From Streptantibioticus cattleyicolor NRRL 8057 = DSM 46488 (GTDB lineage Bacteria > Actinomycetota > Actinomycetes > Streptomycetales > Streptomycetaceae), in NCBI RefSeq assembly GCF_000240165.1, contig NC_017586.1:2976001-3040000 (forward strand): a stretch of DNA of 64,000 nucleotides, read 5' to 3'. The notes beneath the pieces were generated by a model. The model searched no databases. It was not told where the DNA came from and saw only the letters and a list, made by a program, of their open reading frames with translations. Of the stretch, positions 58,396 to 63,041 are shown piece after piece. A program made the translations under genes and the position numbers. Position 1 is the stretch's first letter; every line of letters starts with the position of its first letter.

Positions 58396-59925
58396 CTAAG
58401 ACTTGGCGGGCACGCGTGACACTCCGCGTGCCCGCAGGAGATCACTCAGCACGCGCACGGGTGACGTGGCACTCATGGCCAAACGTGCGTCGAGCGCTGC
58501 CTCCCACTGCTCGGTCAGCCCCAGCATGAGGCGCTTGCGCATGCCTGGGGTGACGTGGGCGTAGCGCGCCGAGACCGAGCCGTCGATGTGGCCCATGCGT
58601 TCGTCCATGAGCACCTTCTCGGTTCCCAGGTCCTCCATCATCGTCCGGTGGGTGTGGCGAAGGCCGTGGGGCGTGAGCCCCTTGGCTATCGGGAGCCAGC
58701 AGGCGTCGGCCCGATCGCTGGCACCCCGACCCCGTGCCGGGACACCGGGCCACGGCTCGCCGAGCAGGGGCACCGGCCGTGGCTCCTGCGGTGCCTTCTT
58801 CGGGTACCAGCCGGAGACCGCCGGCGTGAACAGCCAGGTAGCGAAACCGTTCCTGCGCCAGTGGGCGGCATGCTCCGGTACGACGCCGCCCCGGACGAAC
58901 CGAAGGTCCGCTATGGCCTGCTCGACCTTCTCTCGCGTGGCCTCGGTGACGCGTTCGGGGTGGTTGAGGACGTTGGACACCGTGCCCGTCGAGACGCCGG
59001 CACGACGGGCGACGTCGACCAGCTTCGCGCCCTGGTGGCCCCCGGTTCGCGCCGCGCCCTGCCCTCGGAAGACGTAGGTCTTGCCGTGGCAGGGGCACAG
59101 CGCGGGCTTCGTGCGGGCGATGTGGTTGGCGACCAGCGCTGACAGCCAGTCCATCGAGTCGATGGTGCGGTAGCTGTCGTCCTTGGGTGGGCAGCGCACC
59201 AGTTCCCCCGTGTCGAGCTCGTACAGCTGCCACTCGACCCGGACGGCTCCGGGGCGGACGAACGGGGTCTCTAGGCCGACGATCTCGCCCCAGCGCATGC
59301 CGGTGTATCCCTTGAGGACCACGGCGACGAACTCGTCGTCGCGGCCGGAGAGCAGGGCGGCGCGCTCGGCGGTCAGCAGGATGCCGAGCGCGTCGGTGAC
59401 CACCTTCTCCGGACCACGGTCTCGGGAGCGGCCGGCGCGTTTGCCGCGTCCGCGCCGCCGAGCGGCCGGGTTGGACGTGATCAGGCCCTCGTCGATCGCG
59501 TCCTCGAAGATCAGGTGGAGCGTCGAGCGCCAGGTCTTGACGCTGGAAGCGGCATAGAGGGCCTTCTCCTTCTTCTCCCACAGGTCGACGTCCGTGCGCA
59601 GGATGCCGGCGAGCGCCTTGTCCTCGAACTCGGGGAGCAGGTGCTCCTCGATGTGGCGCTTGTAGTTCTGCATGGTCGAGGCGGCCAGGTCCTGGGCCTC
59701 GTACCAGCGGTTCGCGTACTCGCCGAAGGTCTCCTGGCCAAGGGCCGGGTCGCGCCAGTCGCCGCGACGGTACTTGTTCTCGGCCTCGGCCGCGGCCCGT
59801 TGGGCCTCGCCCTTGGTGGCGAACCTGAGCGCCTTGCCGTTCTCGTCGACCACCGTGTTGTGCTTGCCGGGCGCGACCTTGTACCGGCCGCGCCAGTAGC
59901 TTCCGCGCTTCTCCGCGAAACCCAA
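58396..59925 (-). CDS. Tyrosine integrase with embedded LacI-type HTH domain
   Basis: 509 aa from TTG 59925. Residues about 65-150 are the SAM-like core-binding domain. The catalytic domain has Arg211 (TGMRWGEI), a probable Lys248, His420-x-x-Arg423 (HGLRH), His446 (MGHIDGS) and nucleophile Tyr455 (RYAHVT), so all six positions can be filled. Residues 301-346 (KLVDVARRAGVSTGTVSNVL, then NHPERVTEATREKVEQAIAD) are a textbook LacI-family helix-turn-helix plus hinge start, inserted between the two halves of the active site. Two cysteines (CPCHG, 277-280) precede it. Its role should be integration and excision of the element; the extra domain may bind DNA to regulate it. Confidence 0.93.
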   Translation of the reverse strand: MGFAEKRGSYWRGRYKVAPGKHNTVVDENGKALRFATKGEAQRAAAEAENKYRRGDWRDPALGQETFGEYANRWYEAQDLAASTMQNYKRHIEEHLLPEFEDKALAGILRTDVDLWEKKEKALYAASSVKTWRSTLHLIFEDAIDEGLITSNPAARRRGRGKRAGRSRDRGPEKVVTDALGILLTAERAALLSGRDDEFVAVVLKGYTGMRWGEIVGLETPFVRPGAVRVEWQLYELDTGELVRCPPKDDSYRTIDSMDWLSALVANHIARTKPALCPCHGKTYVFRGQGAARTGGHQGAKLVDVARRAGVSTGTVSNVLNHPERVTEATREKVEQAIADLRFVRGGVVPEHAAHWRRNGFATWLFTPAVSGWYPKKAPQEPRPVPLLGEPWPGVPARGRGASDRADACWLPIAKGLTPHGLRHTHRTMMEDLGTEKVLMDERMGHIDGSVSARYAHVTPGMRKRLMLGLTEQWEAALDARLAMSATSPVRVLSDLLRARGVSRVPAKS

Positions 59926-60683: not shown

Positions 60684-61173
60684 TTGGCGGTTTGGATAAC
60701 CGCCGATCGTCGGCTATGTTGCGCCGCGCTCAATCGGTGAGCGAGGCGGTCGGGGTGCTGCGCAAGGCCGGATCCCCCGAACGGGAACCGACACCACAGA
60801 CCCTCTCTGACGTGGGGTTTTGTGTTGTAGCTTCGTCACTCGCAGGACGTCAACGGCTTCCCGATGTGATCCTTCTGGCTCGGGATGCGCGGCAACTATT
60901 TGGTCAACCGCCGATCGTGCCCTACCGTTTTCGCACCGCCCTCGCCGACTCTATTTCCAGCGGCATTTCTGCCGTGAGAGATTGCGCCGGATAGGGCTGG
61001 ACTTGCGCGACCTGGGTGTGGCTATGTTGACGACACCCCGGAAAGCACGAGCGGCCATCAACGCTCCCGCGTCAACGGCCAGACATCCCACGCCCCTTCA
61101 CGCCCGACCCGCCCCGACCGACGGTGAACCGTGGGCATCCCGCCTACCGGCCACCGAGTGAGGACCGCCCCTC
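60684..61173. promoter_or_regulatory. Divergent control region of the element
   Basis: 490 bp without a convincing gene, lower in GC than neighbours. It holds the palindrome at 60686-60704, a 13-bp repeat in two copies (60698 and 60906), and GGCTATGTTG at 60712 and 61020, whose TATGTT could be -10 boxes for the initiator transcript. Confidence 0.5.
60686..60704. promoter_or_regulatory. Palindrome GGCGGTT-TGGAT-AACCGCC with repeat of its right arm
   Basis: 7-bp perfect arms, 5-bp spacer, immediately upstream of the XRE start. The right arm continues as AACCGCCGATCGT (60698-60710), repeated exactly at 60906-60918. Probably the XRE operator and a second half-site. Confidence 0.55.
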
Positions 61174-62106
61174 TTGGCACGAATCCGCACCATCAAGCCG
61201 GAAGCCTTCGTCTCCGAGTCCCTGGCCGCCGTCTCCCTGACCGCCGAGCGCACCTTCTTCGGCCTGCTCACCCAGGCTGACGACCAGGGCCGGCACCGCG
61301 ACCACGCCGCGATCATCGCCGGGCAGCTGTGGGTACTGCGCCCGGAACACACGCCTGGAGCTGTCGAGCAGGACCTCGCCCAGCTCGCCGACGCTGGGCT
61401 GATATGCCGCTACAAGGGCCCGGGCGACAAGCGCTACCTGCACATCGTCACCTGGCGGCAGCATCAGAAGATCAACCGCCCCAGCGCAAGCCGCCTTCCC
61501 TCCTGCCCGCACCACGACACGCAGGCTCGCACCGCGCCCGGCGTCGATGCGCTGGCTGCGGGAGTCGGCATCACGGAGCCCGCACCGCAGCCTCACGGAG
61601 CCCTCCGTGAGGGCTCCGGGCGAATACGCGAGCCTGCGCTGAATCCGGTCACTGATGACGAAATAGCAGGTCAGAGCGATTTCGGTGAGCCTTCCGTGAG
61701 GCACCAGGGAGGGCTCAGTGAGGGAGCGGTGACGCCTCAGCGTCCGGATCTAGGACCTAGGATCATGGATCTAGGAAATACCCCTTCGGGGGGCGCGAGC
61801 GCCCCCGCACCCCACGCCGTCTCGGCCAACGAGCTCATCGCCGAGTACGCCGCCGCTTGCACACACCGTCCGCCCAAGGACGTCCTGGGCCATCTCGCTC
61901 GCGAGGTGCGCAAGCTGCTCGGCGAGGGCATCGCCCCCGCCCACATCCGGGCCGGCCTGGAACGGCACCGCGCCAAGGGCCTGCATCCCAGCACTCTGCC
62001 GAGCCTCGTGCACGAGGCCATGAACGCGGCCCCCACCGCGCCGGTTGTCCACAGGGCGTGGACAAACCCCGCCGATGTCGAAGCCGCCTACGGAGGTGAC
62101 CTCTGA
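61174..62106 (+). CDS. Replication initiator-like protein with N-terminal winged helix
   Basis: 310 aa from TTG 61174 (GAGG about 10 nt upstream). RIRTIKPEAFVSESLAAVSLTAERTFFGLLTQADDQGRHRD and QDLAQLADAGLICRY are the N-terminal DNA-binding region of actinophage/ICE replisome-organiser proteins. Residues about 110-215 are a linker whose DNA carries iteron-like repeats. Residues about 220-310 (ANELIAEYAAACTHRP..VLGHLAREVRKLLGEG..IRAGLERHRAKGLHPSTLPSLVHEAM) resemble the DnaD-like C-terminal part that contacts the helicase loader. The downstream DnaC-like gene overlaps its stop. It should start replication of the excised element. Confidence 0.8.
   Translation: MARIRTIKPEAFVSESLAAVSLTAERTFFGLLTQADDQGRHRDHAAIIAGQLWVLRPEHTPGAVEQDLAQLADAGLICRYKGPGDKRYLHIVTWRQHQKINRPSASRLPSCPHHDTQARTAPGVDALAAGVGITEPAPQPHGALREGSGRIREPALNPVTDDEIAGQSDFGEPSVRHQGGLSEGAVTPQRPDLGPRIMDLGNTPSGGASAPAPHAVSANELIAEYAAACTHRPPKDVLGHLAREVRKLLGEGIAPAHIRAGLERHRAKGLHPSTLPSLVHEAMNAAPTAPVVHRAWTNPADVEAAYGGDL
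61571..61785. other. Putative replication origin inside the initiator gene
   Basis: TC(C/G/A)GTGAG repeats lie at 61604, 61682, 61693 and 61715, with inverted copies at 61571 and 61593. Copies at 61591-61612 form a perfect palindrome CCTCACGGAG-CC-CTCCGTGAGG. Spacings 61682-61693-61715 are 11 and 22 bp, in helical phase. They are followed by an AT-richer stretch (61745-61785) with GGATCTAGGA twice. This layout matches the lambda origin within gene O. Confidence 0.6.
62045..62065. promoter_or_regulatory. Inverted DnaA-box pair in the initiator gene
   Basis: TTGTCCAC-AGGGC-GTGGACAA: two head-to-head copies of the Streptomyces DnaA box (the first, TTGTCCACA, is perfect). It is at the 3' end of the initiator gene, 40 bp before the helicase-loader start. 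It may recruit host DnaA. Confidence 0.6.
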
Positions 62107-62804
62107 CCGCCACCCTCACCCGCGAGCCCCACCGGGTCGGCCCGCTCGCCGACCGGCTCAACGGCATCCTTGCCAGCCGCGGCATCGACCTCGCCACCGC
62201 CGCCGTCGAGGACGGGCACGCCGAGCCCGTCACCGCGCTGGAACTCGCCGACGCCAGGATCCCCGCCCGCTACCGCCGTGCCCTGGCCGACCACCCGAAG
62301 GTCACCGCCTGGGCCGACGAGATCGCCCGCGCCGGACGCCCCGGCCCCGGCGGGCCGGGCATCGCCGAAGGCCCGTCGCTGCTGATCGCCGGCCCCACGG
62401 GCACGGGCAAGACGTACCAGGCGTACGGCGCCATCCGCACCCTGCTCGCCCGAGGGGTCCGTCTGCGCTGGGAAGCGACCACCACCGCCGACTTCCACGC
62501 ACGCCTGCGCCCACGCGCCGGTCACGACGCCGAACGTGACCTACAGACTCTGGCGCGCTGCCCGCTGCTGTTCCTGGACGACCTCGGCGCGGCCAAGACC
62601 AGCGAATGGACCGAGGAGCTGACCTACCGGCTCATCAACCACCGGTACGAGCACATGCTCCCAACCCTCATCACCACCAACCTTCCGATGGAGCAGCTGC
62701 GCGTCACCCTCGGTGACCGTGTCGCCTCCCGCCTCGCCGAGATGACGGAGCGCGTCATCCTCGACGGCCCCGACCGACGACGCCGCACAGCGCCCGCCGC
62801 CTGA
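62103..62804 (+). CDS. DnaC-like AAA+ helicase loader, CTG start
   Basis: 233 aa. Walker A IAGPTGTGKTYQ, Walker B LLFLDDLGAAK, sensor I TTNLP and the arginine-finger segment DRVASRLAEM are the DnaC/IstB pattern. It should load the host replicative helicase at the element's origin. The reading frame has an in-frame stop at 62097 and no ATG, GTG or TTG near its beginning; the only start is CTG at 62103, with GGAGG at 62092-62096, six bases upstream. CTGA overlaps the initiator stop, so translation is coupled. Confidence 0.85.
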   Translation: MTATLTREPHRVGPLADRLNGILASRGIDLATAAVEDGHAEPVTALELADARIPARYRRALADHPKVTAWADEIARAGRPGPGGPGIAEGPSLLIAGPTGTGKTYQAYGAIRTLLARGVRLRWEATTTADFHARLRPRAGHDAERDLQTLARCPLLFLDDLGAAKTSEWTEELTYRLINHRYEHMLPTLITTNLPMEQLRVTLGDRVASRLAEMTERVILDGPDRRRRTAPAA

Positions 62805-63041
62805 CTGGCCGCCTCAGCGCCCTCTCCTGGCCGGTCCCGCCGCATCACCTGCGCTCACACCAGCCCTGCCCGCGCCAGCCGCTCGCGTAGGCGCTTGCAG
62901 CGCTCCGTCGATTCGCCCTACGCCCTTCGCCCTCAATCCTCGACGCCTTGGAGCCCCCTCCTGCCTCCTCTCAGCCCCGTCCCCCTCGCCATACGGATCA
63001 GCGGCACGCCGCTCCTCCCCGACTGGGCCACCTCCCCGGTG

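Follow-up and report, generated by a model that had tools for sequence, protein, structure and literature searches.

It is quite likely that, in the 64,000-nucleotide stretch of the Streptantibioticus cattleyicolor chromosome analysed here (the window), a mobile element carries its replication origin inside its own initiator gene, at positions 61571-61780, and that this origin is opened by way of short dyads and tandem heptamers. The identification is well supported by sequence comparison. The region has the anatomy of an origin: it is constrained at the DNA level, its dyads are phased on the helix and diverge together with the DNA-binding domain of the initiator, and they are followed by an array with low duplex stability and a constant strand orientation. 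The features of the region are as follows (positions in the window, with the strand where one applies).

61174-62106, plus strand: initiator gene, TTG start, 310 aa
61571-61578, minus strand: iteron dyad centred on 61574, which reads TCACGGAG on the plus strand and TCCGTGA on the minus strand
61591-61612: two dyads in the inverted repeat CCTCACGGAG-CC-CTCCGTGAGG, centres 61596 and 61607
61649-61655: weaker dyad TCACTGA, centre 61652, near phase with the other dyads
61666-61674, plus strand: GCAGGTCAG between the two iteron groups, kept in nearly all homologues and in the second copy of the same genome
61682-61722, plus strand: three direct iterons, TCGGTGAG, TCCGTGAG and TCAGTGAG
61746-61780, plus strand: tandem heptamers GGATCTA GGACCTA GGATCAT GGATCTA (GGAAATA), proposed DNA unwinding element and helicase entry site
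61781-61805: overlapping hairpins CCCC-TTCG-GGGG and GGGGCG-CGAG-CGCCCC, directly 3' of the array
62045-62065: inverted pair of DnaA boxes, not counted in the origin
62092-62096, plus strand: likely ribosome-binding site GGAGG of the loader gene, read from the sequence, within the end of the initiator gene
62103-62804, plus strand: gene for a DnaC-like AAA+ helicase loader (phrog_50, E=2.2e-37; IstB_IS21, E=3.8e-14)

The initiator gene and its phased dyads

The initiator matches the profile of the replication initiation protein family phrog_2149 over the whole protein (residues 2-295, E=1.5e-31). The AlphaFold model has a three-part layout, with a winged-helix DNA-binding domain (residues 1-110, pLDDT >90), a disordered, flexible linker (residues 118-213, pLDDT about 30) and a helical C-terminal domain (residues 218-284, pLDDT >90). 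Many PDB matches back the winged helix; for example, 4pt7, 'Structure of initiator', was aligned with Z 7.2 and rmsd 4.1 (88 aligned), a match that ties with other winged helices. For the C-terminal domain, Foldseek and VIA-align gave no clear match in the PDB. A search of the PDB for sequence relatives gave none that was credible. The repeats lie in the DNA that encodes the linker, whose protein sequence is poorly conserved among homologues. Although this is the disordered part of the protein, its DNA is under the strongest synonymous constraint of the gene.

Six copies of TCnGTGAG had been claimed for this DNA in the sequence-only reading. Five of them are exact (61592 on the minus strand; 61604, 61682, 61693 and 61715 on the plus strand), whereas the sixth, at 61571, agrees at only seven of eight positions. 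The palindrome described there was found to be perfect, with 10-bp arms (61591-61600 and 61603-61612) and a 2-bp spacer, and the direct copies at 61682, 61693 and 61715 are indeed 11 and 22 bp apart. When a wider dyad motif, TC[ACG][CG][GT]GA, was used, the dyad centres in the linker were 61574, 61596, 61607, 61652, 61685, 61696 and 61718, corresponding to offsets of 0, 22, 33, 78, 111, 122 and 144 bp, which are close to multiples of 11 bp. The synonymous excess is +0.29 to +0.38 at the inverted-repeat dyads (61591-61612) and +0.29 at 61654-61692, around GCAGGTCAG.

One bacterial-genome scan gave 73 homologous loci with 47-98% identity. Homologues with the same protein and no repeats had been named beforehand as the finding that would speak against an origin; among the Streptomyces relatives, the linker repeats persist. 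In 33 dereplicated Streptomyces homologues, the 190 bp ahead of the array contain 5.3 dyads; the rest of the gene has 0.29 per 190 bp, and synonymous shuffles give 2.3. In Streptomyces, the dyad spacing is 11 bp in 63 cases, 22 bp in 27 and 33 bp in 13, and in the viral genes it is 11 bp in 52 cases and 10 bp in 26.

One possible explanation of the repeats is that they result from repetition in the linker peptide (LTEPS, DLGPR), the DNA itself having no role. HGxLTEPS and DLGPRxxDLG motifs do recur in the encoded linker. However, when synonymous codons were shuffled with the protein kept, the mean number of TCnGTGAG copies was 0.32 and none of 3000 shuffles reached five; furthermore, identical rare codons are used across homologues. 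Since 11 is not a multiple of three, neighbouring dyads are in different codon frames, the frame shifting at each 11-bp step, and the arrays of the viral relatives (see below) begin in all three codon frames (17, 14 and 18 cases). This explanation was rejected on the frames and codons, and we consider it very improbable. Part of the repeat signal could still come from amino-acid constraint, which is made less likely by the rare codons, the mixed frames and the 11-bp spacing.

The dyads appear to diverge with the domain that would bind them. In 86 genes, the sharing of dyad words was correlated with N-terminal identity when the C-terminal domain was controlled (partial correlation 0.445, reached in none of 300 permutations); for the C-terminal domain, the value was 0.07. 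This co-divergence looks as a binding-specificity code should, with the caveat that the permutation test leaves shared ancestry in. A second, diverged initiator-loader pair is present in the same genome, about 95 kb away (G000:C2:2941168-2942184, L006); it has TTCGCCGAA-type dyads and a similar heptamer array, and is possibly a compatibility group. If the origin reading is correct, the dyads would indicate which related elements are able to coexist in one cell, and this genome offers such a case in its second copy with different dyads.

The heptamer array and its recurrence in relatives

The four heptamers proper span 61746-61773. This array was absent from the sequence-only reading, and yet the synonymous conservation of the gene peaks here (61738-61776, +0.49) and not at the TCnGTGAG repeats. 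The array codons are identical in dereplicated homologues, and nearly all relatives use CTA and AGG in the array, which make up 1.5% of the leucine codons and 5.5% of the arginine codons in these genes, respectively. The AT-richer tract noted after the repeats was borne out: within 61000-62810, no 40-bp stretch is less stable than 61747-61786, and in each of 31 homologues the array is the 40-mer of lowest stability in the gene, so that an easily melted tract adjoins the iterons. In Streptomyces, the GGANC chain is on the sense strand in 64 of 64 genes and on the antisense strand in none. Across the 8.1-Mb genome, the four-fold GGANC pattern was found three times, once in a simple repeat and once in each of the two initiator genes. 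The hairpins directly following the array (61781-61805) are kept in most homologues, although 10 of 33 are without a perfect 6-bp stem, and the hairpin of homologue L067 has one compensatory change (GGGACG..CGTCCC).

Three homologues (L054, L070 and L079) are frameshifted or truncated, and their frame ends in the array or just past its start. TAG is present in the array unit. The pattern is one that a hot spot of slippage or decay at the array would leave.

An alternative possibility is that the repeats are initiator sites for autoregulation or copy-number control (handcuffing), with replication beginning at another place in the element. In many plasmids, initiator sites have a control function as well, and the dyads alone would suit an operator cluster. 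However, the sites in the coding linker always precede the least stable tract and the oriented array, which is the anatomy of an origin and not of an operator; thus, we regard this possibility as unlikely.

The array was also found far outside the Streptomyces relatives. Viral contigs were scanned blindly, at the DNA level, for four GGATCNN units. Of the 88 contigs with a hit, 29 have the array within a gene of the initiator family, always on the sense strand and at 0.32-0.76 of the open frame. In a set of 76 viral initiator genes picked by protein sequence alone, an array of at least three GGANC units with 7-8 bp spacing is on the sense strand in 49 (an approximate fraction, since the set includes some near-identical phages) and on the antisense strand in none, and DNA of equal length just downstream of the 76 genes contains no such array. 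The other 27 viral relatives are without a GGANC chain, and some of these carry purine-rich or dyad repeats in its place. Of the 66 array loci in 150 Streptomycetaceae genomes, 53 are in initiator-family genes; the array is present in 53 of 68 initiator genes, and the reversed pattern does not occur. The order of repeats followed by an array was also seen in named phages of Mycobacterium, Gordonia, Streptomyces and Marinomonas. From these comparisons, we propose that a GGANC array in the linker is a frequent, not universal, feature of the phrog_2149 family, represented in the present gene by four copies at 61746. No description of the GGGAACAGGGAACAGG repeat or of the GGANC array was found in the literature searched, which included few subscription papers, and an earlier description is possible.

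The array might instead be a site for the ATP form of host DnaA, or for another host protein, and not for the proteins of the element. The 13-mers of oriC and the ATP-DnaA sites contain GATCT, and the unwinding region of P1 oriR has five GGATCT or GGACCT units. On the other hand, many relatives carry GGAACAG, GGAGCAG or GGACCAA, which are poor DnaA sites, and the nearby DnaA boxes are not conserved; we therefore find a role of a host protein of this kind quite unlikely. The inverted box pair at 62045-62065, which the sequence-only reading had included in the origin, is present and exact, but any such box was found in only 10 of 33 dereplicated homologues, and two boxes in 3 of 33. The synonymous excess at the boxes is only +0.02. 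The pair was dropped from the origin because it is not conserved and shows no synonymous excess, and the 33 homologues do not have the conserved box that a DnaA-assisted origin should have.

For the origin in the linker DNA, a mechanism can be drawn by analogy with lambda, RK2 and P1. Dimers of the initiator would bind the short TC-NNN-GA-type dyads, which are about 11 bp or a multiple of this apart and face the same side of the helix. The bound dyads would strain the adjacent tract, and the heptamers at 61746-61780 would open. The C-terminal domain of the initiator, together with the DnaC-like loader, would then bring host DnaB onto the strand exposed in this way. The most speculative step is that the array may be read as a single strand by the initiator or the loader, beyond mere easy melting; this is suggested because its 7-8 bp period does not match the helical repeat, because it is strand-oriented, and because it is common to relatives with different dyads. 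A plain melting role for the array is the alternative. We tentatively raise a wider possibility, which is somewhat doubtful at present: the GGANC array may be a sequence-specific element with a fixed strand orientation, which the initiator or loader reads in single-stranded form, with one 7-8 nt unit per protomer, and which thereby marks the place of helicase loading; as such it may be a general origin code of phages, plasmids and mobilizable elements in several bacterial groups, the GGATCT units having arisen independently in P1 oriR. If the origin reading is correct, sequence alone would be enough to locate the origins in a large family of phages and mobile elements, by searching initiator genes for phased dyads followed by a GGANC array, and the question of how the loader is directed to one strand and one position at an origin would become directly testable.

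The loader gene and the surrounding element

The helicase loader gene adjoins the initiator gene. Its apparent start is a CTG codon at 62103, which overlaps the stop of the initiator gene, and the order of initiator and loader is kept in 62 of 63 homologues. The loader start codon is GTG in homologue L055, and looks like ATG in the L058 group.

Downstream of the origin, the element has a MobC-like gene and a relaxase that matches MobB (E=1.9e-13). The proteins scanned, which represent part of the open reading frames of the element, gave no match to FtsK. Because a relaxase and a MobC-like gene are present instead of an FtsK-type transfer gene, the element is probably an integrative mobilizable element, unlike the typical FtsK-type actinomycete ICE. 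This classification is likely rather than settled, since the ends of the element were not found: no direct repeat of at least 18 bp that could mark them is present within 30 kb around the element. As the element is integrated in the chromosome, we infer its autonomous replication.

The MobC-like protein and the relaxase (L004:10381-12734) are related to proteins of many actinobacterial plasmids, and plasmid p1 of S. angustmyceticus has the same set of initiator, loader, DUF2637, MobC and relaxase. A tyrosine integrase (58396-59925, minus strand) contains, at residues 302-344, a LacI-type helix-turn-helix that lies between the central part of the protein and the catalytic part. Furthermore, the block of replication and mobilization genes is flanked by an exact 28-bp inverted repeat on GCCGATCGTCGGC (60698-60725 and 66745-66772, the latter in L004), which may be the operator of a neighbouring helix-turn-helix regulator or have another function in the mobile element.

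Comparison with known origins

The likeness to the O-ori-P arrangement of phage lambda that had been drawn at first holds as an analogy of layout and function, but homology to lambda O or P was not detected. In lambda, too, the iterons and an easily melted tract are in the linker-coding part of the initiator gene, and the helicase loader gene adjoins it, as in the lambdoid O-ori-P layout (PMC7466680; also the lambda record). However, comparison of the initiator with lambda O gave an hhalign probability of 0.1%, and the loader had no significant BLASTP match to lambda P. Descent from the lambda O/P family was rejected, there being no homology as far as these comparisons reach. Lambda also differs in having 18-bp iterons with starts 20-24 bp apart and no GGANC chain, and the loader of the present element is AAA+ and DnaC-like, unlike lambda P.

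The true homologues are the phrog_2149 and phrog_1408 initiators of actinobacteriophages and other phages, for example Mycobacterium phage TChen (hhalign 99.6%, E=9.5e-25, for the TChen initiator) and Gordonia phage PantheRoc. Their genes likewise have dyads and then a tandem array of 7-8-mers in the linker. They differ in that the array unit is GGAACAGG or similar, with an 8-bp period in many, and in that the iterons are often TCGCGA, not TCACGGA. In P1 oriR, iterons are found beside the units GGATCTA, GGATCTA, GGATCTG, GGACCTG and GGATCTA, although these are 10-13 bp apart and not 7, and the origin is outside repA. P1 has an annotated RepA with 19-bp iterons and an annotated DnaA site; the likeness noted here is one of origin DNA. 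The origin oriV of RK2, which is not inside the initiator gene, is a precedent for the proposed role of the array, although it has another initiator and 13-mers. There, the repeats of the unwinding element are bound by the initiator TrfA as a single strand and strand-specifically (PMC4980987). Mycobacteriophage RepA origins, judged by their description only, were not counted as a precedent; they are described as related to the RepA of pMSC262-type plasmids, and no repeats were noted (PMC7157519).

Among integrated Streptomyces elements with their own replication gene, the present one was said earlier to stand apart from those with RepSA or RepAM, and this agrees with Ghinet et al. 2011, who list RepSA, RepAM and Prim-Pol initiators for actinomycete ICEs, RepSA and RepAM being described as of the rolling-circle type (PMC3218068). 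The types listed do not include a pair of initiator and DnaC-like loader (PMC3218068). If our reading is correct, a theta-type, lambda-like replicon is added to the integrated Streptomyces elements. Among Streptomyces linear plasmids, rep1 of pSLA2 is a precedent for an intragenic origin; a plasmid search gave no match to a pSLA2 record. An origin inside the initiator gene is of a known kind, and what the present element and its relatives add is the recurrent, oriented GGANC array.
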